This document shows positions 2,869 to 50,400 of a DNA stretch of 64,000 nt, piece by piece. Position 1 is the first letter of the stretch. Every line of letters starts with the position of its first letter. The stretch is from Chaetoderma sp. LZ-2023a (taxonomy: Eukaryota > Mollusca > Caudofoveata > Chaetodermatida > Chaetodermatidae). Where the stretch lies: NCBI GenBank assembly GCA_034401795.1, contig CM067373.1, positions 89,486,996-89,550,995 on the forward strand, written 5' to 3'. The translations under genes and the position numbers were made by a program. The notes below the pieces were generated by a model that was not told where the DNA came from, searched no databases, and saw only the letters and a list, made by a program, of their open reading frames with translations.

Positions 2869-3931
2869 TTAAATAATGGAGGCAGTTTTCAATCGCCTGA
2901 TGAAAAATACCAAAATTCTAATTATTCCAGTAACATTATATTCGTTGTCATAATTAAATCGTATTAGCAAGGGTTCCCTTATAAACTCTAAACTAGATTG
3001 ATTGGTCAATGATGGGCCATAATTCATATGGGTGACAAATTCTGTTAGTGCTGTGGGACCGTGTTCCAAGATCATGAATATGTCGTCTATGTAGCGAACA
3101 TATAGGGCTGGTAGACGGGGGGGGGGGGGGGGGGGGGGGGGCATTGGACATGAGCTTTTCTTCTAGATCTGCCATGAAGGTGTATGTGCATGCCGCTTTG
3201 CTGCCCATGGCTGTACCTCCTATTTGTAGGTAGTTGTTGCCGTTGAATTCAAAGTTGTTGCATTCTAGTACTAGCTTCAGCAGATTCAGGACGTTTCTGG
3301 TGGAAATGGTGCCTGGGACGCCATGTTTCATGCAATGTTTAGCCACTGATGATAGTTTCATATAGAATTTCTCATCTGAAAGTTGCCTGATGGTCTCAGT
3401 TATGTAATCTTCACGTGTTTGCACAACTGTGGCCTGGCCTTTGTCAGCCTTTTTAATGGCGACGGAGTGGTCAGTTTGTAGTTTAGCCAGGGCTTTCTGT
3501 TCTCGTGTTGAGAGGTTATTACAGGGAATTCTGCTGTGTATATGTTTGCTGAATTCGAACCTGATTGCTTTGAAGAAAGATTCAAAGGCAATGGCTAGAG
3601 TGGGTGGTGGCATGGCAGTTTTCTTTGGTGAAAACCTTTTATCCAATAGTAATTGGAAAGGTGTTTTTGTAGATTCTGGTTTTTTGGCGGGTGCTTGGAG
3701 GAAAGCATAAGGGGGTTGTGGGTGGAAGGTGAAGTAGTGGATCAGGCGCATTCGTCTAATGAATGCTTGAAGGTCTGCATAGAGAGAGCCCATGTATGGT
3801 TCAGATATGATGGGACTGAAGCCCAAACCTTTATCTAAGACACTTATTGTGTCGACGTTAAGATCTTGAGTTGTGAAGTTAAAGACAAACGAAGATGGGT
3901 ACATTTGAAGGTTTTTATTAGGTGTGTCCAC
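2869..3931 (-). pseudogene. Penelope-like element reverse transcriptase, internally deleted
   Basis: Reading the minus strand, GLGFSPI, then RRMRLIHYF, then LSTREQKALAKLQTD and IKKADKGQATVV match the N-terminal part of Penelope-like RTs. About 170 residues that should hold the first catalytic aspartate are missing between KFYMKLSS and VAKHCMKHG. The frame resumes with GGTAMGSKAACTYTFMADLEEKL and, after a poly-C tract that shifts the frame, YVRYIDDIFMI with the Y-x-D-D motif. No GIY-YIG endonuclease follows. The copy cannot be active. A gag-like section precedes it at 4020-4914. Confidence 0.82.
3117..3141. repeat. 25-bp poly-G tract inside the RT pseudogene
   Basis: An uninterrupted G run lies between the EEKLMSN and PALYVRYIDD parts of the RT and moves the reading frame. 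It may be a real slippage product or a sequencing/assembly weak point. Confidence 0.9.
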
Positions 3932-4019
3932 ACTGTTATTGTTACAAAATTGGTGGTGGACACACCTGAAAGTGGCTTAGTGTTGTGTTGAGAGGTGGTG
4001 TGCTAGCAGACGTGGATGG

Positions 4020-16000: not shown

Positions 16001-19000
16001 CTGTCCACCACACATAGGCTTAAAATTACTATGTGTCACAATAATCTGCTTGTATTGACCCTTGCACGTAGCTTTATCGCTTAACCCTTACCACACTGAT
16101 GTCAAAATTTAAAATTTTTAATTAAATTAAAACATGAACTGGTGTTCATTTATCAACAAATTTGGTGGAAGATGTTGCTGTTGTAGACAGCAAGATGTTG
16201 CTGTTGTAGACAGCAACATCCTCCACCAAAATTGTTTAAAAATTTACACCAGTTTCTTTGCTATTGACCCAATAAGAGATAGAATATTGACGTCAGAGTG
16301 GTAAGGGTTAATAATTCTTTCTTATACTTTTCAGGTACAGCAAAAGGATGTCAACAGATTCCAATTGGTGAGTTCATATTTTGGGAAACATTAATCATTT
16401 AATCCAATTTCAGTTTTCTCAAAGAAAGTGTCTATTTGCAGACCAAGCAGTTATTTTTGAAATTTTTTCACTGGAATCACTGGCTCAGTTATCAAGCCAG
16501 TCATTCCAGTGCAAATATTTTTTATAAATATGTGTTTTAGTTCGGTAAATTTGCTTAATCTCCGTATTTGGTGTGTTATTGTCATAAGTGAAACTTAAGT
16601 TAATACATCTGACTTCTGCAAGAAAATTAGTTCCATTGTAATTCCAATTTAATTTGAAATATTCAAAGTATTTAAATAAAACAGTTTGTCTACAACCTGT
16701 CCCTTCCTGGTAAAATTGTTTTCAAACTTATCCTGAGCGCTATTTCCTCCCTTCCCCTTCTATCAATTTCCACAAAACTATAGATGTAAGCTGTTGAGTA
16801 TTTTGAAACTAATTTGACTGGGTGCTGTTGCTGCCCATGGCAGCAACAGCGCCCAGTCAAATTAGTTTCAAAATATTCAACAGAATGTTTATTAAATGGT
16901 AAACAACGTGTCGGACGATTAAGCGTTAAAGACAGAGTTTATCGAGTGATTTATGATGTCATCTTACACGTCACGTAGTTGATTATGACGTCATGATGGA
17001 TGGATAAACTTGGAAAGGTACATTTTATATCAAGACTATGTCCGTCATAAATTGTTGACCATTTCCCTGGCTGATCCAGAATATGATCCAGATATAGTAA
17101 CAGGCATGACAGGTACAATGATGAGAAATCTAACTTTGTTAATAACATTTCTTTTTACCTGCAGCGCTAGATGCAAGGGTTAATTCGAGCATTTAGTGTT
17201 TCTTATTTCTAAGACATTTTTCAATTGCCTGAATGCTTGCCCATGAGGTCACAAAGACAGCTTTCAGCAGCATTGTTTTCAAAATAAAATTTTTTCAATA
17301 ACTAGTTCTACTGGAGAAATCTTCTCCAAACTTTGGTGGGAGCTTGCCCGTGGGTTCCCAAAGATGTATACCAGTTTTGTGATAAAAAGCTAAACTCGAC
17401 AGCAACAACTTTCAACAACATTGTTGGCTCACCTGGCCTGGAAGATCAAGTGAGCTTTCCGATTTCAATTATCATTGGCGGGAAGTATCTTTAGAATATA
17501 GAGATCCAACTTTGTTCAAGTGAAGTCGATCGGCCAATTTGGCCAGTTGAATTGGCCGGTTGCCATCTTGGGATTTTGGCTGATTTTTAGAAACGTCATT
17601 AAAAATCTCCGAAACCATTTTGGGGATCAATTCAAAACTCATGAAACATCATCTATTGCAAAGGCTGAACCAAGTTTTTCAAGACAACCTGATGGGCTAA
17701 ATGTTTCGACGGCCATCTTTGATGACGTAGTTTTCGCGAAAAAAACTTCTTCAGAACCCCAGCTGAAATTTGGGAGATATGATTAGGGACTAAGGGGCAT
17801 TAATGTTTGTTCAAGGGAAGTTGAGACGTAAAAAAAACATGCATCGTGTTTGGTGGATATATTGGATTTTTTTATTTGACAGATTTTGAAGCCGAGATTG
17901 GTTTTATATAGGTTTTTGGGTATGCCGATTGGAAATTTCTACTTTCGAAACTCAGATGAATGGTTTAGTGGCCTTCTTGGATCTTTTTCCTGCCAAACAC
18001 TCCCATACTAAAGCAATAGTAAATGTAAAATAAATGTCTTCTCGAGAACCACTGGGCTGATTTCGTTTATATTTGGCGGAAAGCATCCTTACGGCATAGA
18101 AATCCAAGCTTGTTCAAAAGGAAGATGATCTTGAATTTTGGCCAATTTTTAGAAACATCTTTAAAAATCCTCAACGAAACCACTTGGGGGGATTGGTTTA
18201 AACCTCATGAAACATCATCTTGAGCAACAGCTAAAACAAGTTTGTTCAAGGGAACCTGATTAGCCAAGTGTTTCGACTGCCATCTTGGATGACCTAGTTT
18301 TCATGATAATGACTTCTCCAGTACCACTAAACAGATCTGGCTGAGATTGGGGAAATATGATTAGGGACTAAGGGCCATTCAAGTTTGTTCATAGAAAGTT
18401 GATACATCAAAAAAACATGGCCACCATGGATTGATCAAAACTTAGCATGTTTGGCTTGGATTTTTTGAAGATTTCTGAGAAAATCATATAAAAGACTACT
18501 TATTAACTACTCGGCCAATTTTAATAAATCTTGACCAAACCTTCACACAAATTAGATTGGTAAATTTGTCCAGTGTTCATCTCGTTTTGATCAGTTCTGC
18601 CAGTGGCCAATAATTCCATGCCCTTTGCACCTCTTGTTTGATCTACCTTTGACCTCATGGCCGCCCTCTTGAAAAATATCTCAATGATGCGGGTATTGAA
18701 CAAGTTTGTCTGTGTTAAAATTGGAGGACAATATCAAATCAATAGTTGTTATTACACCACAAACATCCATTACCGTTCAATCACTACTTGCTAAATCAAA
18801 CTATCTGCATTTAGCACCAGAATAAGATTTTTATGCTTGCTTTCATGCCCCCATATGCCTATGCCAACTCATCGTACCCTCACCCAGGCTTCTGGTAGAG
18901 TACACTCTCACCATAAAGCCTGCATTAGACTGGCACCTGTCTATACTCACTCCTCTAAGTCCTAGGTCAAAGTGCATGCGCAGAGGAGACTAAGAGTAAC

Positions 19001-22000
19001 ATAGAATCACTTTCAAGTTTTTCTGCTAACAGAAAGGTTTGTTTGTGGCAGTCTAAAGCTTTTTGTGCTTGCCAACCGTGTTACAGCTGTCTTTTAAGAG
19101 GATTACTTCTTATAAACATTGTGGTGGTCAACTATGCCTAACCATTTATACACTCATTAAACCCACTAAGTAGGAGTTCTACCATTCTGAAGAGTTCAGT
19201 TTATTTCTGTAATTTTCTAAACAATCTCTGAATTTGAATCTTCGTTTTCCCACCTTTTCTAGCATGTGCTTTCTCTGCCTTTGTTAGGCATTTGTTAGAG
19301 ATGGCTAGCGATTATCAGAAGCTGTATGCTTCATCTTTTCCTATTTTTTCGTTTTTAAGAAAATCGGCAGAAAAGGTGAAATGTTCGTCGTCAAAGTGTG
19401 ATCTCCTTCACACCTGTGAATTCGCATGGCACGTGTACCTTAAGTGTACCTCATGTACACCTCTCATTATGTGCGGATTTTGCAAGAGGTGGTCGCTTTG
19501 CAAAAGCTTTATTTTAAAGAGTGCTTCTGATCGCTCCCCTCCTGTTGCTGCGAAGGACAAAACAGTTTCTAGCCCTTCATAATTAGCTCCAGCAACCCTG
19601 GAAGGGGGGGGGGGGGGCCTTCCTCTAATAATCAGAATAGCTAGGTGGTAATGGCTCTTCGCTTTTTCGAGTCATTTGCTACAGTTTTAACGCAATCTTT
19701 GGATGAGCGCATTTCTTCGGCCATTCGGGCAGCGAAAGCTGATTAGTGATTCAGAAGGAGCCAGTCAGAATCCTAAAGACCACGTCCGTAAGTGGGGGAA
19801 ACCCGTGTCCCTCACTACGAGACAGGTGGCGAGCTCACCTAAGGCCAGGAAGAAGGATGACAAGAAGAGAAAGGTGGGCTCGTGCAGGCTACCAATTTCT
19901 CAAAGCCACGTAATTCTTGGGGCTAGGCAAGACCCACATGTAGTGGTGCCGGACGTGTCCAGTTCACCTATTGCCAATGTCAAAGTCACAGTGGTTCCAG
20001 TTATGCGCAAAGTTCGCCTGATTCGATTCCTGCTATTTTTTAGGATAATTTGAATGTTTCTTCTGGTCTGCGTATTTCCGGTCCATCTATTTTCTGTAAT
20101 TCGGTTGTTCCGGCTCTGCAGGACCTCAGTCAACTGCCGGTTTCCGTTTCCAGTTCCCTCTCTTCCGTTTCATATCCGACTTCCGGTTTTTGCTGCTCTT
20201 CCGGGTCTTCGTGATCCTGGTCAGCTTCCGCTTAGTGCTTCCGGTTTTCGTAGTTCTGCTTCCGGTTTTGCTGATCAATCGGGTCTGCATGATCCTAGTC
20301 AGCTTTCGGTGTTAGCTTCCGGTTCCTGTTCTTCCGCTTCCCGCTCAACTTCCGGGTTTTATGGATCACTTGGGTCTGCATGATCCTGGTCAATTTCCGG
20401 TTTCAGTTTCTGGTCTTCGCGCTTCCTTTTCCCGTGTGACTTCCGATTTGACTGATCTTCAGGGTCTTCAGGATCCTGGTCAGTTTCCGACTTCTGCTTC
20501 ACATATTTCCGATCTTTCCTTGACTTCCGGTTCACGTATTTACGGTTCCAAGATTTTTTCTGCTTCCGTTTTTCATTCATCCGGGGATAGGGTCGCTTAC
20601 GGTCCCAGGAACCTCAATTTCCGTGTTCGTTTTCTTAGGACCTAGTCATCATCTGGCCTAAGAGTTAGTCTTATTTCCGCAATTGCTTTAAAGAATCGGA
20701 ATATTTAATGGCTGAAAATCTTCAATCAGAGACATTGAGTCTTGAATTTATACAGACATTCAGCATTTATTCTTTAGCAGTAACAGTATTTCAATGTAAT
20801 TAAAGACTTCCGACTGGTTCCCATATGGGATTTTTGGTTTAGCTTATTTCATATGCACATACAGTAGGTTTAAATAGAACACTCAGGCGATAAGGCAGTT
20901 GTATTCTTCCGTCAAGCGTGTATTTTCAGTTAGTCTCAACGTTCCCATGCTTCGTTATTTAATTTTTTCTTCTTTCGGTTTTATTTTATTTTATTGATTT
21001 ATTTATTTCTCTTTCTGACTAAGTTTCTACGCATCATCTCTAGATACGTAATTTTTTCTTTCATCCGCCTTTAGATGGCCAGTTGTCTTTGAGCTGTTCA
21101 GCCTTTTCTCTCGCTCCTTTCACCTGTTATGTTGGCAGGTTGACATATTTATTTTAACCTAAGGGAGTTAATTCATTGCCATTTTGCTACCGTAATTTTT
21201 TATTCTAAATCTCGGTTTTTATTTCTTTTCCTTTTATGGGTTATTTCTCCTTTCTTAGTGTCTGTTTATTTTTGTGGACATTATTCTTGGTTCCATTCTC
21301 TTCTTGGGGTTCCCTCTCTTGATTCTATTCCTTTTCAGTGACTCAGTTTTCTTCTCTGTCATCATGGTTACGGCGAGTCATTTCGCCCTGGTTTCATTTC
21401 GCCTCCTTGTCATTTCAGCATTTTTCTTCCATTTTCGCTCTTATTTTTTCAAATTTTGGCCTATCATATAAATGTTTTATCCTTTTACTTAAGTTTGTTC
21501 TTTCCTTACATCCTGGCATCAGTTTTTCTCGGCTAGTAAATATTCATTTTTTGTTCTTTTCCTTCTACTTCCAGTAGCTGTCGATCGTCTTATCTGTCAG
21601 TTTGATTCTTCCTTTCCCTTTTTCTCATTTTCCCCTTTATTTCCTTTCATGATATTTTTCTATCTTTTTGTAGTTTTCCGGGTTTTTTCTCCTAGATCAG
21701 TGTTTATTGTGCTGATCCTTGGAGTTGTCTTTATCATATGCATGTCTATTTCATAGCTTTATTTTTTCTATAGACTTTTCTGTTTTCAGTTCCTTCTTGT
21801 CATTCTCAGTATAGTTTTCAGTTGTTTTTACTGTTCCTTGATTTCTGTCTTGTTGGGGCGGATGTGTGAGATCAGGTTTTCTGTCTTGTGGGGGTGGATA
21901 TGTGAGATCAGGTTTTCTGTCTTGTAAGTTTAATATCTTCTTAATAGCCTTAAGTCTCTTATTTTTTCTTGTCTGATTAGTAGGTGCCTTGAATTATTTT

Positions 22001-22710
22001 TATATTTTCCTTCCTCTTTTTAGTTGTTCTCATAGAGGTTCTTTACTAGGTCTTACTAGGTGCTGAGTGGTCGCAGGCTCTAGTCCTCTATAGCATCTTC
22101 TTCATGTGGCTCCTGGTTATCTGTGTGACTTCCGGTAATCAGGGCATTTTATAATTAAATAATACATCCTGGTTTCTCCAGGCCTTATCCAATCTATTTT
22201 TAAAGGCATTTAAACTGGGTGCATTAACTACATTGGTTGGCAGATTATTCCAAATATTTACTATTCTGGCTGGAAATGCTTTAAATCTTATATTCGTGTT
22301 AGATCTTTGTTTGCTTATTTTATGTTTATGTCCTCTTAATAGGCTGGATTTTTCGGTTGATAGCTTTAATTCAGGTGCTACTTCAGGATCATATATATTA
22401 TTAGCTAGTTTATATACTTCAATCATATCTGCCCTACGTCTTCGGTGTGATAATGTTGGTAACTTTAACACTCTCTTCTTTCCTTTCCTTTTAGTTGCCC
22501 TTTCAAGGCTGGGGGGGGATGTTTGCTGATATTACATTTCATTTAATTAGTCACATTTTGATGGTTGATTTACATTCTGCATCATGCAAGGCTGTATCTG
22601 AATACAATATTTTGGCGCAATTGTAATTTAGTCTTTGATCTTTATTTCTTTAGTATTATAGGGGCAATCCCTTTTTTAGGTTGCTTAGCAGGGCATCATT
22701 TATTAGGCGA

Positions 22711-22747
<37 letters not shown>

Positions 22748-25700
22748 CTCGCAGCTTGCCTAACTTTCATCCAAGGAGAGCAATTAATAGCTCACCTTTA
22801 ATCTTAAATCTTTGATCATGGTTTGGATATTTTACTTCTTACATGTAAGTGCAGATTTAATATATAAATTTATTTGGAAATTTTCATTCTGCTAGAGGAG
22901 CGATCACTCGCCTAACTCTGATGGTGGATAGCAATTTTTTAACTCGCCACAATTTTCTAAAAATTAAGCCCGGGTTTAGCATTAATCATTTCATGTTATG
23001 TAGATTTTCATTTTATTATTTCTTCTGTTGATAGAGTGGGAGTTCTTGCTCTATCGCTATTCTATTTTTATTGACCTTGTTCTGTCATCTATGTCTGGGT
23101 CTCTCTTATTATGTTCAAAGATTTCAGAATTTCATTTCCATTTTCTTCCTTGTTAAAGGAAGAGTTCATATCTAGAGTCATGTAGCTGTCTGTGGACAAA
23201 TTTTTACAAGGAAATTTAGGTCCAGGATTTAATCCCGCTGCATAGTTTTCAGCTACAGCAGGAATTGTTCATCTATCAATACAGTCAATTAATCCTTGGT
23301 CATCTATTTCCTCGAACATAGTTTCTACATTCAGCTCTTTCAAGAATTAATCCAGAGGTATGCAGTTTGTCATGCAGGCTAGGTTGGATTATCAAAATTC
23401 TCAAAAAGTCATGCCTAGTCCTTTCTCAAGTTTTCACCATCTAGGCGTCTCTTTCGACCTGTCTCAGGGCTTAGTCTTTCCTTCAGAGGCAAGGGTGGAG
23501 GCAATCTTGTTGACTATGGACATTCTGACATCCTCTTTCTCAGTCAGGGCAAGATTTTTTCTCAGGGTTCTAGGCTTGATGGTCAGCATTGAGAATGTCA
23601 TACTCTGGGCAGCGCTGATGAGAAGACCCTCTGGAAGCAGTCAGTTCATTCTATTTACCATCAGATTTCCATCAGAGAGCACTTGATCCCTCATTTAGAC
23701 TTTTGGAAGGATCGTTCTATGCTTCCGATAGGTGTTCCATTAGTCAAGACCTCTCCTCAGGCGATTATTTCACAGACACTTCCCAGGAGGGATGGGGAGC
23801 AGTCTGGAACTCCCTGTCGATTTCCGCTCTTTGGTCCCTGGAGGAGTCGACTGCTTTTCATCAATATCTTGGAGTTGTGGTCAGATCGAATGAGCGGCCT
23901 TAAGATCTCGATTCGATCAGCCAATTCCATGATAGTTTCCTACATCAACAGACAGAGAGGAACACAGTCTTCACTTCTTTGTATGGAAATTTGGAATCTT
24001 CTGTTGTGGTGCCGCAAGAACCAAAATTTGTTCTAGTGGCCAGTCATGTCTCAGGCAGACTGATCATTCTTGCGGACCAGTTTGTAAGACCCAGCAAGTT
24101 TGGGCACTCCGAGTGGCAGTTAAAGAAGTCGCTTGTCTAAGCGCTTTTTCAACATCAGGGTCGTCCCCACGTAGATCTCTTTGCGACATGTCTGAATGCC
24201 CAGATCGCTTTCATGTCTCCTTTTCCGGACAGTCAGGCTCTGGTGGTGGACACCCTGTCTCAGTCCTGGACAGGAATGTTTGCCTACGCATTCCCACTAA
24301 CAATTTTGATTCTGTTGGTTCTGAAGAAGGTCTTGGACCAGATCTGCGAAATTTTTCTGGTAGCCCCTTTTTGGCCGAAGAGAATCTGGTTCCTAGACCT
24401 TCTCGATCTTCTGTTAGACTTTCCTCATCTTCTTCCAGTGTCCCCAGATCTGTCAAGTAAGGGGCACATGTTTTCATCCAAATCCAGAAATCTTCAGTCT
24501 GCGTTTGGAGAATATCGAGTGTCCGGTCCCTGAGATAAAGTTTTCTTCAAGATCTCAGGAAATCCTTGTCTCTTCTAAGAGGGAGTCAACACGTCGAGTT
24601 TACAAGGGTCGTCTTAAAATCTTTGGAGAATGGTGTTCAAACTATGGTTTCTTGCCTGATTCTTTTTCTATATCCCAGGTGTCAGATTTTTTATCATATA
24701 TTTTCGATTCTTTTCAACTATCACCTATTACCATTAGGGGTTTTAGATTTTCCATGGTTTCCTCCCTTCCTTGTCTCTTTAATGCCGATATCAAGGATAC
24801 GAAGATTCTCAATGGTTTTATTAGACGCTTGGGCAATATTCGTCCTCCAGTGGCTAAGCCTTTGCCTTCTTGGAATTTGGCCTTGATTCTTCTAGTATTG
24901 GCAGGTCTCCATTTTGAACCAATTGGATCTATCAGTCTCAAACTATTGTCTCTTACCTTGTTGCCACCGCTTTAGCTAGGAAAAGATCCGAAATTCATGC
25001 TCTTTTTGCAGAAGGACAGATTTATCGAATCTGGGGACGGTCTAGTTTTATATCCCAGAAGGGTTTTTTTATCGAAGACCCAGTCTAACAGTTACCCAGC
25101 CAAGCTGATCATCTTTTTTGCCGTCCGACAAGTTCTGGTGTCCTGTCAGGGCCTTATAAGTCTATAAATGTTGTACAAATTTTAAAAGATCCGATTCTTC
25201 CCACTTTTGGGTCGAGGATGTAGCTAGACCAATTTCTAAGGCCTCGGTTGCCAGATGGATCTGTGAGACCATTAAATTATGCTATGAGATTGCCTCCCCT
25301 GGTGAGATCAATTTAGCCCATGTCAAGGCGCACGACTTTTGTGATATGACTAGCTCCTTCGCTCTTTTCGTAGGCTCATCATTGGACGATGTCATGTAAG
25401 TTGCAGGTTGGAAATCTGAATTTTATCTCTATTTAAAAGATCAGAGCCAAGCGGCCTCCTTTTTTTTTAGAAATATAACGATTTTAACAAAACAAGCCAA
25501 AGACCATTTTCCAAGCACATCTCACCAATTTCACTAGTCTGTATGTCCGTCAGAAATGGTGAGAATGTTCTCTTGTTTTGTTTATTTCATTGAGTTGACG
25601 ATTTTCATTGTTTGATAATCACTGATTTGTTATGAATGCACTATTATGTTAATTTATTAACATTTGGATATGAGTTGTTTAATTTTTATCCTTGTTTAAG

Positions 25701-26386
25701 ATTCTCAAAACTCCACCCACCAGGGATTATTAAGTGGGGCACTGACCAATTCTACGGGTTTAGCAGGTAGTGATTGAATGGTAATGGATGTTTGTGGTGT
25801 AATAACAACCCCCAACAGACCCCCCCCCCCTTGTGGATTGGTCTGTAGTTTTATTAACCACTATAAACATATCATTCAATCACTATGACATGGCCTCAGC
25901 CACCCCGTGTGGGAATGATTTGAATCTCTATTCTTTCTTGCATCTAAATTTGGAAAGTGATTCTATGTTACTCTTAGTCTCCTCTGCGCATGCACACACA
26001 CATGTACTTTGACCCAGCTCTTAGAGGAGTGAGTATAGACTGGTGCCAGTCTAATGCAGGCTGTATGGTGAGTGTACACTACCAGAAGTTCCGGTTGAGG
26101 GTACAATGAGTTGGTATAGGCATATGGGGCATGAAAGCAAGCATAAAAATCTTTTTCTGGTGCTAAATGCAGATAGTTTGATTTAGCAAGTAGTGATTGA
26201 ACAGTAAGAATGTTCATAGTGGTTAATAAAACTACAGACCAACCCACAAGGGGCCGTCTGTTGGTTTTTTTCGACAAACAGACAGATCCAAATGTACGGT
26301 CACTCCCTTCTCCTCATCACTCCCCTCTCCTCGGCACAGACAAGTTTAGGATGGGAATGAGCTTTTAGCAAGGTCAAAATGCTGTT

Positions 26387-44400: not shown

Positions 44401-47400
44401 TTGTACAAAGGTCACAATAAGTACAACATTTCAGCTAATTTCATTGCGCTGCTTTCTCTTGGCATACTGTAGGTAACCTAGTCTTAAGCACATGAAAGAC
44501 CATATTTGAACCTATTTATAACTTAACAAGAGGCCGGGCATGTATTGCCTATAAGCATAACCCTACGGTTTTGGCCAGAATTGCAAAAAGAACAAGGATG
44601 TGTCCTATCAAATTTGGTCAAAATTGCTCCACTAGTTCTCAAGAAGACATTTTAAATTTCTTATTGCTTTAGTATGATAGCTTTTGGCGGGATAAAAATC
44701 CAAGATTGTCACTAAACCAATTATCTGACAGTTTCGAAAGTGGCAAATTTGAAATCAGCATACCCAATAAGCAATTTTGGATTCAAAAATCCATTACATA
44801 AAAAAATTCCAATATGTCGGCCAAACACTACATTTCGACTTGAGCAGGGTGGTAATGTTTTTTGACGAATCACCTTCCCGTGAACAAACTTTAATGGCCC
44901 TTAGTGCCTAATCATATCTCATATCCCGATCCGTTAAGCGGTTTTGGAGAAGACATTTTCACGAAACCTACGTCATCAAAGATGGCCACCAAATAATTGG
45001 ACTCAATTCTGAATGACCTCAATGTCCCATGCGCTCTCTACGTACAAGTGCCATGTACTATAGGACATTAAACGAAAAGGATTCATTTTCGTATACTCTT
45101 AATAATGAACCACAAAAAACACGTATCATCACCATATTCATAATAACGAAGGGTCACGTGACATTACAATTAAGCATGGACAACACATACACATGACTTA
45201 CCTTGTGGAAGATGGTTGCTGTTATCATCTCCCCATTGGTGGAGACTGATGCAGACCAAAAAAGTGGATGTTTCCATTGATTAAATGTGAAATATATAAA
45301 AAATGAGGATACCTCATCAAAATATGTACACCTAGATTAGCTTTTCAAAATCGATAAGGCGAGAGGATTCGAGGTGTCAAGGAGATAATGGTTGGTAAAA
45401 CTTGACTTACAGTGCCACTGAGCTACTGACATAATGTCGTCCACAGGAACCCCATTAAATAGGGCAGTGGAAGCCACTACGCCCCGGACACTGTGAGCCT
45501 TGGCCATGTCAACTTGTTTACCTGTGGCAGATTTATGGCAAAATTTAATACACTCTACAATCCACCTGGAAATGGTGTCCTTTGACACCCTGCCATGGGG
45601 TTCAATATATGACAACCATACTGCTGTAGGGTCTGTCCGCCATTCCTGAGTACATTATTTGTACCGGTTTAATGCTCGAACTGGACACCATGCTTTTGAA
45701 TTAGGATCATATCTAGTCAAAGCCGGTAAAAATATAGGTTGACCTGGATATTTCAAAGACTGGTTTTTAACCATGAAATTTATCCTACGTAGAAGCCTAA
45801 GGCCTTCCCCTGTAACCACAAAACAGTCTGTCTCGGCTGATAAGGCATGAATCTCACTTCTACACCTAGCCGAGGCCGCAGCATTTAAAAATACAGTTCT
45901 AAGTGTCAACATTTTCATAGAAATGGAACTTAGTGGTTCAAATGGCCTATCAGCTAGTACCTGAAGCACTAGTGATAAACTCCAAGACGGAATCACTGGG
46001 AGATTCCTTGGTCTTAGATTGCCCATGCCTTTGATTAAAGAATTTAATGTACTTACTTCATCACTTCCCCTATTAGCCAAGCAAGGGATAACTGTCATTA
46101 AAGCTGACTTATAGCCAGCAATAGAATTAGGCTCGAGGCTATAGGCATCATACAGGTGACAGAGGAAATCAGCTACTACCTGAATAGATGAATCCATTGG
46201 ATTAATACATCTTTTTGAGCACCATTCTGCAAATCTGTTAATTTTATAATTATATGCTCTGGAGGTTGACCCCCTTCTGGCTTTTGCCTTGAACATGGCT
46301 GCTTGCTCAGAAAAGCCCTACTTAATTCTAGATTCCTTGACAACATCCACGCAGTAAATTGGAACATTGACGGATTGTTGTGACGGGTCTTGCCCTGGAA
46401 GATAATATTGTCCATTAGAGGCAGAGGAACCGGATTGCAGACCAGAAGGTCCAGCAGATCCGTATACCATGATCGGCTTGGCCAATTTGGGGCGATCAGA
46501 AGCACTTGGCATTCCTCCTGTCTGATTTTCTGAAGAATTTTTGGAATCAGGATTGCTGGAGGGAATGCGTATGCATACATTCCCAACCAGCTGATAGCTA
46601 ACGCATCTGTTGCGATAGCGCTCAGATCTGGAATCGGAGAGACGTATGTCGCCATCTTCGCATTCGTCTTCATTGCGAATAAATCTATGTTGGGTTTCCC
46701 CCAGTGGTTGCACAGACAATCAGCCACACATTGATTTAGTTGCCATTCCGTAGGTAAAACACTCATCCTTCAGCTCAATGAGTCTGCTAGCAGATTTAAC
46801 CTTCCCGAAATAAGAACTGCTTTCAAGGAAATCCTGTGATTCAGGCACCAGCAAAGCAGTTTCCATGTCATCATACAGAGACTGGGCGACCTCGTTCCGC
46901 CCTGGCAGTTTATGTAAGTCACTACTGTTGAGTTGTCTGATCGTATTAGAACACTCTTGCCCTGAACTTTCTGTAAGAAAGGTTCCAGGGCCAGGACTAC
47001 TGCTCGTAATTCCAGTAGATTTATATGTTCTGTTGACTGTTCCAGATTCCAAAGCCCTGATATCGTGAATTCTTCCAGCCAAGCTCCCCACCCCTCCATC
47101 GATGCATCTGTATACATTGTTATCTGAGGGTGAGGAGGGGTTAGCATCACCCCTGCCAGGAGATTCTCTGTCTTCAACAACCATTGCAGGTGGTGAATTA
47201 AAGGCTCCAGCACTGACACGTTTGAGTCCAGTGAACCTGTACTCTGGGTCCATTGCGTCATGAGCAATAACTGGATCGGCCACCTGAGGAATGACTGGTT
47301 CCAGAGAAACCTTCAACCCCAGCCTTCTCAGGTAAACCCGTGCCAAGACATGATGACTGTTGCACACTGACTGTATTACTGAGATGAGTACTTGTACCCT

Positions 47401-50400
47401 CTCCTGAGTAGGATAAACATATCCTATCTCCAGATCGAAGAACATTCCCAGGTAAACAAACTTCTGGGATGGAGTCAGCTCTGATTTTCGAAAGTTGATT
47501 ATCCAGCCCTAGTCTGTGAGAGTTTTCAAAACCATCTCCAGATTCGCTGATAAACTTTCCTGATTGTGTGCTTTTAACAGCCAGTCGTCTATGTACGTGT
47601 GGACTGCTATGCTTCTCCTGCGGAGGTATGCTGTAATCGCAAGAACCACCCTGGTGAAGAGCCGAGGAGCCGTAGAAATTCTGAAGGGTAATACCCTGAA
47701 TTCCCACTGTCTTCCCTGCAATGCGAATCTCAGGAAGCGACGGAAACTCCTCAATATTGGAATGTGGAAATAAGCATCCTTCAAATCTATTGAAGCTGTC
47801 CACATCCCCTTCTCCAACCCTGCCAACACCGATTTTATAGTCTACATTTTGAAACTGGGTGTGTCTATGAACTTGTTCAATGGCTTGAGGTTGAGAATTG
47901 GTCTCCACCCTCCAGTGCTTTTCGTCACTAGGAACACGGTTGAATAGAAGCCCGGGCAATTTTGTGCCGGTTGAATTGCTCCTTTGAGTATGAGGGAGTT
48001 TATTTCCTCCTCTATACACAACCACTGATCTGGATCTCTTGGAATTTGAGTCCAGACTGGCACCAGAGACAGTCGTGATGGCGGGCCTGTTATCCAGTCG
48101 GGATGATACCCGACTGAAAGCCATCACAAGACTAAACGGTCCTGAGTAAACCGTTCCCACTCTTGCATGTGGTTGGCCAATCGGCCTCCAACTGGTCCAA
48201 CTAGGGAGAGAGGTGGACATAAGGAGAGCAAGAGTGGCACTGTCTCTTGGTGCAGATGCACTGGAGTAGCTCTTACTGTGGTAATCGCCCCATCAGGTAC
48301 GATTACCACGACCAGATCCTCGCGCACCACGGCCCGCACCGCGCGCACCTTGGTGCACAGGCGGCTGCCTGGCTGGCTGCGCTGGAGGAGCCTGCGGCCC
48401 CCTCGCTGCTGGCCGAAGCGCGCGCGGCCATGGCCGGCGCTGAGCTGGTGGCTGGCCTCTGACCTGGCCACCGCCACCTCGAGCCTGCAGGGGATGATAC
48501 GAAGGGGGAGCTGCACGAACGCGCTCTCTGCAGAGCACTTCAAATTGCCCAGGGTAACCGTCTCCTGGAGGTGCCTACATCCCTCACCCCCAAAAAGACC
48601 AGGACCTGTCATAGGCGTATGCAGCAGCCTATTATACAAATCCTGGGACAAGTTATCAAGAGCAAACGTGCGCCTAGCCCGGACACTCCTGGTTACAGAC
48701 CGGGTTAAACAGGCCAAAGCCAAGTTAATTCCATCTTGGGTGGCTCTCTGGACAGTCACCAGACTAGCCTGGTGCAATGCGGATGCCGTTACTACCCCTT
48801 GTAACAGCTGTGAGACATGCGAAAGCGCTGAGATAGACGCCCTCGAACTCTCTTCCGCATCGCGCAACGCGGTGTTAGCCGAACGCAAAGCGTTCGAGCA
48901 CAGTGCTCCCGTGTCAGTCCGGGAACCTGGCCGTGTATCTTCACCTAGCGCAGCGCAATCATCCGCGCTTGGCTTCGGCACTACACTGTATAACTGATAT
49001 TGATCAGCTACAATACGGCATCGCTTTGCACCTCGCGAGGGGCCTTCGCTAGACGTCCATGTGCCCTAATGGACGTCTCTGCCGCAGTGAACATATCAAC
49101 AATATGATCAGCTAACGGCAGAGATGGCATAGCAGTAACAGTCGGTTTACCTGCCAGCCATGGGCGCTGGTCCCGTTGGCTGGCCAACTTATCCACAGCA
49201 AGACCTGGCCTGACGTTTATTAGCCACTGACAAGCGTCAGACCAGTCTTCCTCTGTGGCCACCTGCGAATGCTCTACAAGACAAGGGCCTTCGTCATCCT
49301 CCTGAGCAATCGCAGGTGTATGCATGGCTGGAGGAATCGATACGCCTGGCAAGCCAGAGAAAGCATGCTGGCCTGAAAGAGCAGGCATGCCAAACTGACT
49401 GGCTTGACCAGGAGCAGGCGCCGTGGTATTGCGTGGGGAAATATTTGCCACACCAAGCCCTGGCAAGCACCAGTTACACCATCGGCAAGCCGAGGTATGC
49501 GGAAAAACTGGCCATCAGATCCAGCCCGGGCTACCTTCTGCGCCGTGAACGCTACTCCTGCGTGAGTAGTCCCATGGACAATATCGCCCATAATCCCTGC
49601 GAGGGGATGCACGTACGTCAATGTCCATGGCCACGGCGCCAGAAGGAAAACCCAGCAGATAATCCTCTTCTTCCTGGCCAGAAAGATTAGACTCTAGGTC
49701 AGCAAAGAATGCTAACCCGGACTGGCCAGGAAAAGTACCATAGGAGGAGCTGGTACCTGCAGGGTGCGGATAAACCTGGCCTGATAAGCAGGCACCAGGC
49801 TCCAGCGACACCTGACCACGAACAACCGGCGCGGCAAGCTTGCTGCCAGTGTCCTCATAGTGGATTTTGCCCTCGTCTGAATCATGGACGAAAACTGGTA
49901 GGTAGCACCGATTCATAGGCGGGGATTATCTGCTCCGGAGCAGATGAAGAGGACAATGAAAGATTTGAACCAGGAAGCATGCCACGAAGCAACTCTGGGA
50001 CCAAATCCTTAATTGTCCTCTTCATCTCTCCCATCGTCTCAATACATAAGGCCTCCATATCCATAGAGGACGAGGCCTTCCTTTTACCCTTCTTACCAGA
50101 ACCATCCTTCTTAACTTTCCTCTCCTCCTCCAGAGCCTTCTCTTTGGTCTGCAAAGATAGAAACTCAGACATTAGCTCTGCCCCCCCCCATTTTTACAGA
50201 TCTCACATTTAAGCAATGGCCCACATGGGCTGCACAGGGAGCATAAGTGAGGGGCGAATCTATCCTTGATAAATCTTCCACATGATGGACAGCCAGACCC
50301 CTGAAACAAGCCAGAGGACGAAGACAATGAGTAATTCAGTTATTGAATTAGAAACTCAAAGCCAAATATAAACAAGGAGGCTGGGGGGCCATAAAGACCA

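Follow-up and report, generated by a model that had tools for sequence, protein, structure and literature searches.

Introduction

In PMC3266345, 28 elements of the DIRS1-type layout are tabulated, three of them from Lottia and two from Aplysia, with lengths of 4.0-6.3 kb, and a methyltransferase domain is named for DIRS1-like elements. DIRS-1 of Dictyostelium and the elements GaDIRS1, GaDIRS2, SkoDIRS2 and TnDIRS1a (Table 3 of the same paper) possess inverted repeats, a right extension and an internal complementary region, and TnDIRS1a has GTT at its left and GAT at its right end. According to the model in PMC3266345 and PMC5633606, the DIRS RNA does not include the complete ends; the internal region serves as template for what is missing, and the joined ends give a circle that the tyrosine recombinase (YR) integrates. 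The 2017 review (PMC5633606) calls this replication model, with a block templating the missing ends, not fully proven and proposes an element without the block as a test. The same review describes TRE5-A.2 as mobilised in trans by TRE5-A.1.

The element described here lies in the window, the whole stretch of 64,000 nucleotides from Chaetoderma sp. LZ-2023a that was analysed, and it has the same arrangement of inverted repeats, right extension and internal complementary region. With a probability of about 0.75, it is one dead member of a non-autonomous family that arose from DIRS1-like retrotransposons and spread without a reverse transcriptase (RT) palm through enzymes supplied in trans. The architecture itself is already known; what is added is an amplified RT-less family and a relative with long open frames and nearly the same ends. 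Among the papers listed by searches of an open-access library, none was recognised as describing a non-autonomous DIRS element. The genome searched comprised 2.44 Gb in 2753 contigs.

Structure of the element and its internal block

The element is composed of the following parts.

18745..26265, + strand: whole element, about 7.5 kb, delimited by end repeats and copies, right end uncertain within 26264-26270
18745..18795, + strand: left tip, beginning with the core GTT and complementary to the left half of the internal block
18770..19021, + strand: left inverted terminal repeat, inner part, from the inverted-repeat comparison
25759..25809, + strand: internal complementary region, left half, with the AAC core at its end
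25807..25885, + strand: internal complementary region, right half
25946..26207, + strand: right inverted terminal repeat
26208..26265, + strand: right extension, to which the left end has no counterpart, and damaged right tip

The sequence-only reading had proposed ends of DIRS-1 type with one internal block complementary to both tips, and this was borne out by comparison of the inverted repeats. The left tip (18745-18795) was 96% complementary to 25759-25809 over 51 nt, and the right end (26210-26253) was 95% complementary to 25827-25870 over 44 nt. The inner inverted repeats were paired as 18770-18851/26126-26207 (82 nt, 98%), 18849-18885/26093-26129 (37 nt, 92%), 18899-18978/26001-26080 (80 nt, 89%) and 18972-19021/25946-25995 (50 nt, 94%). 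The longest exact inverted match of the element was at least 40 nt; none of 100 first-order Markov shuffles of it gave one longer than 16 nt. The sole direct repeat touching an element end is a 26-nt pair (25759-25784/26182-26207), which is present because the DIRS1 layout produces it. Ngaro/PAT-type YR retrotransposons carry split direct repeats at their ends, and this type was ruled out as the ends of the present element are inverted repeats.

Ends and internal block in the family copies

The left boundary equivalent to 18745 was found in 40 non-identical left ends, the window included, which were left from 67 candidates after removal of 27 right termini. These ends lie in 38 distinct flanks, two pairs sharing a flank as duplicated loci. 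A was observed at position -1 in 28 of the 40, and the first three bases, forming the left core, were GTT in 34. The majority sequence of the left tip agreed with the block at 51/51 positions. The right ends of many other copies read TCTGTTGGGGG followed by unrelated DNA, with 31 distinct ends found. The right tip of the window element reads TCTGTTGGTTTTTTT, and therefore its right end lies within 26264-26270 and is not fixable to the base. Right ends were placed for 32/40 copies and were unplaceable for 8/40, a few rows, such as L067, not being family right ends. Exactly TCTGTTGGGGG, with five G, was present in 17 of the 32 placed ends (up to one mismatch tolerated within the first six bases). 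The G run was followed by T in 19, A in 12 and C in one of these 32; in 11 of them G4-5 was followed by ATT instead of GTT, the right core of the family being variable.

The internal block with its AAC core was recovered in 31 distinct forms, a biased sample as the loci were fetched by a query containing the block. Four further copies, selected solely on their left end, were examined over their full length. L079, L080 and L081 contain the whole block; L082 stops inside it (L082:2868-2945) and continues with a stretch resembling the right extension, possibly by a hairpin deletion between block and right end. Copies lacking the block, which would have contradicted the sequence-only reading, were not found among these four, with three whole and one truncated inside. 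The less deleted copies measure about 7.2-7.5 kb and decay was present in all copies read. The first-look counts of 2222 and 4923 represent candidates, not copy numbers.

The sequence-only reading had placed the ends at 18745 and 26263; the left one is upheld by the 40 left ends, while the right one falls a few bases short (26264-26270). The block proposed at 25769-25885 is present, with 25759-25885 as better limits, and the circle junction is readable as claimed, as GTT in the tips and AAC in the block.

Coding remnants and the missing RT palm

Coding remnants were identified largely from their resemblance to another DIRS-like element in the window (45274-50219, - strand). This second DIRS-like element has a 29-nt inverted repeat (86%) at what may be its ends, and its frames are gag-like, RT (YIDD), RNase H and YR. 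Its RT/RNase H protein query gave 69120 first-look candidates. The window also contains a 327-aa open frame (2993-3976, - strand) with no Pfam match, which we take to resemble a Penelope-like RT remnant.

19364..20014, + strand: gag remnant in two broken pieces (19364-19579 and 19745-20014), by similarity to L106
20640..23360, + strand: T-rich middle segment at the expected place of the RT N-terminus and palm, limits approximate, collinear in family copies, no palm match
22139..22531, - strand: open frame of 130 aa within the middle segment, without a Pfam match
23396..23602, + strand: RT C-terminal remnant, 41% to the second DIRS-like element, E 3e-12
23626..24012, + strand: RNase H remnant, similar to the second DIRS-like element, E 6e-14
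24108..24389, + strand: linker from RNase H to YR, similar to the second DIRS-like element, E 2e-22
24541..25450, + strand: YR remnant in two frames, similar to the second DIRS-like element, E 5e-31 and 2e-19

The gag pieces matched the gag-like frame of a relative (L106) at 47.5% (80 aligned residues) and 41% (95 aligned residues). Pfam matches of the coding remnants were weak and below the cut-off. The 130-aa frame presumably resembles the tail of a LINE ORF. HxxR, which we take to be the YR motif, is HxxC in the window copy and HxxR in L039 and L081.

By similarity to the second DIRS-like element, no RT N-terminus or palm was found inside the window copy or eight other copies. Six of these nine copies are informative, because L040 and L082 are without the whole stretch and L081 carries other DNA there. 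A closer RT fragment, used as a weak control query, matched only the window and L042 out of seven sequences, and only downstream of YIDD. The sole match of the palm query (L079:3-236) is a DIRS-like RT piece in the flank just outside the element. As the palm is absent and the RT C-terminus and RNase H are present, the element was classed as a non-autonomous derivative and not as a full DIRS1-like element. In the YR of seven aligned copies, a one-base frame difference is common to four, two are in frame and the window copy is deleted at this place. On account of this shared difference part of the family may also have lacked its own YR, with the reservation that a slip in a T/C run could recur.

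A relative with a 1017-aa open frame

When one family member was used to search for YR, 43153 first-look candidates were obtained, of which 150 were scored. About 64 of the 150 scored matches (rows counted by eye) fall within a 1017-aa open frame, with 75-77% identity in the YR; a copy of this relative is found, for instance, at C8:14923398-14931297. Judging from the length of the frame, this relative would carry an RT and is a possible helper. One copy was read in pieces (L104-L107), its two ends being read separately and taken as one copy, with tips about 7.9 kb apart; a second copy (L103) was read at the right end only. In the first of these copies, the tips agree with the block of the same copy, at 53/53 positions on the left and 83/83 on the right. 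The block of L103 has a T5 run compared with T3 in the RT-less family, and the matching A5 run in the left tip of the relative (L107) was predicted from this block and found afterwards. In the relative, the left and right repeats of the single copy compared are 98.9% identical, and identity to another copy is 96.9%.

The left half of the block is the same in the relative and in the majority of the RT-less family (51/51). Identity with the relative, averaged over 27 sequences (26 family copies and the window), was 96.7% (left half of the block), 91.2% (right half), 96.0% (outer right repeat) and 91.4% (right extension). The stretch upstream of the block gave 78.0%, the one separating block and repeat 70.8% and the inner repeat 73.5%. 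Tip and block agree in the relative (83/83) as well as in the majority sequence of the family (51/51 on the left, 46 in-register sites on the right), so that the differences between the two families are common to block and tips.

At L107:549-1001, the relative copy is inserted in the RT/RNase H gene of another DIRS element, and the flank shows a readable YIDD frame. YR matches at C8:37937653, 37942910 and 37948168 are spaced by 5257-5258 bp. Head-to-tail circles were rejected for this spacing, as the L103 junction consists of the right end followed by interior gag; the array is better explained by nested insertion and unequal exchange.

Insertion sites

The right junction of L103 reads GTT-TCGG inside a gag gene, and the unoccupied gag of L105 reads CCTATT-GTT-TCGG (one target). 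No target-site duplication was visible by eye in the flanks of eight copies, in agreement with the earlier expectation of none. The joined flanks of L039 matched spanning paralogues at about 75-80% identity, not exact at the site, which is compatible with a clean insertion. For the joined flanks of L079, which contain a common repeat, no spanning empty site was found. Two copies combine a left core other than GTT with a GTT right core, namely L079 (GCT) and L080 (ATT); this pattern would fit a mismatched core for which the resolution was not the same on the left and on the right.

Probable spread of the RT-less family

The repeats of the family showed mean identities of 94.3% (left-left), 94.4% (right-right) and 94.7% (left-right within a copy). 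Such star-like divergence, with nearly equal values between and within copies, fits a burst of copies of similar age. Copies could also have arisen without reverse transcription in trans, by YR excision at the DNA level, re-integration of circles or segmental duplication. We consider this unlikely: the YR remnants and the two pairs of left ends at duplicated loci are in its favour, but the 38 distinct left flanks and the star-like divergence speak against it.

A short deletion affects the block of the window element close to its right edge, where a spacer is 4 nt long in place of the 8 nt seen in 32/37 copies. Inward of 25873, block and right tip had seemed to differ throughout the family, which was considered as a templating limit; this was rejected as a register shift from the deletion, and sites beyond 25872 were excluded from the comparison. 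Within the RT-less family, tip and block had the same base in 1/9 doubly variant cases (46 in-register sites, 37 copies); the variants were mostly private and gave no useful signal of tip-block co-variation. Between left and right repeats, 10 minor alleles were shared compared with a mean of 4.7 after reshuffling, a value reached in 34/3000 trials, weakly suggesting left-right homogenisation within copies. Chromosomal gene conversion between inverted repeats, in place of templated end repair, might likewise produce the identity of tip and block, and identity alone cannot separate the two mechanisms. It appears improbable, as tip and block drift apart in old copies, with that single identical shared variant, and the young copy of the relative is perfect in tip versus block.

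Over the RT-less segment, L039, L041, L042, L079 and L080 align collinearly with the window copy, the individual pieces being about 79-91% identical. Their flanks differ, and therefore they are not segmental duplicates of one insertion. L040, L081 and L082 each deviate from the window in this region. L081 (C9:67040200-67048800) has about 3.2 kb of other DNA in its middle, with a frame resembling another DIRS gag. That an ordinary autonomous DIRS1-like element had its RT decayed or replaced after insertion, the loss being private to the window copy, is very hard to maintain against the five collinear copies, even with the heavy degradation of the window copy and the differences in L040, L081 and L082. 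The RT thus looks to have been missing before amplification and not lost by the window copy alone. The sequence-only reading, in which the layout survives although the RT core is gone, was right on the absent palm and understated the rest, for the RT-less form itself was amplified.

For a DIRS-type family that amplified without RT, and partly without YR, a helper with matching ends is the explanation towards which we lean slightly. Enzymes supplied in trans would copy the family RNA, and the internal block would be the template for rebuilding the end sequences absent from it. The tips would be joined at the 3-bp core (GTT, with AAC in the block) to give a circle, which the tyrosine recombinase would integrate at a GTT-like site without target duplication. 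Conserved block and tips, concerted differences of the two families, the GTT core and the absence of duplication fit the published DIRS model as far as comparison of copies can tell. If true, what DIRS mobility requires in cis would mainly be the tips and the internal block. Both families would then serve as a natural experiment on the templating of ends, block and tips having changed jointly while the adjoining DNA diverged by about a quarter. A non-autonomous family and a relative with open frames in one genome separate what is carried in cis from what may be borrowed, and show which stretches stay matched.

Comparison with known systems

Long inverted terminal repeats, an internal block matching both tips, a right extension, a 3-bp junction, absence of target duplication and a broken YR were all found, as in DIRS1-like elements; an RT palm with YL/IDD before RNase H was not found in the element. 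Gag, RNase H and YR are characteristic of DIRS1-like elements, and remnants of all three are present in the window element. GaDIRS1, GaDIRS2 and SkoDIRS2 have the GTT/AAC junction of the RT-less family in PMC3266345, and the GAT right end of TnDIRS1a listed there is like the G-ATT class of the family, which may represent known variation. Compared with the DIRS1-like elements tabulated in that paper, the RT-less family has no RT N-terminus or palm, is longer (about 7.2-7.5 kb versus 4.0-6.3 kb) and has an unrelated T-rich middle. The 1017-aa-frame relative (L103-L107) is nearly identical to the RT-less family in block and tips and similar in gag, but differs in its long open frames, in the distance of about 7.9 kb between tips and in the 71-78% identity beside block and tips. 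LARD, TRIM and TRE5-A.2 (the last in PMC5633606) have likewise kept their cis ends and lost coding capacity, with enzymes presumably borrowed. Unlike them, the RT-less family, for which mobilisation in trans is presumed, possesses DIRS-type ends together with an internal template block.
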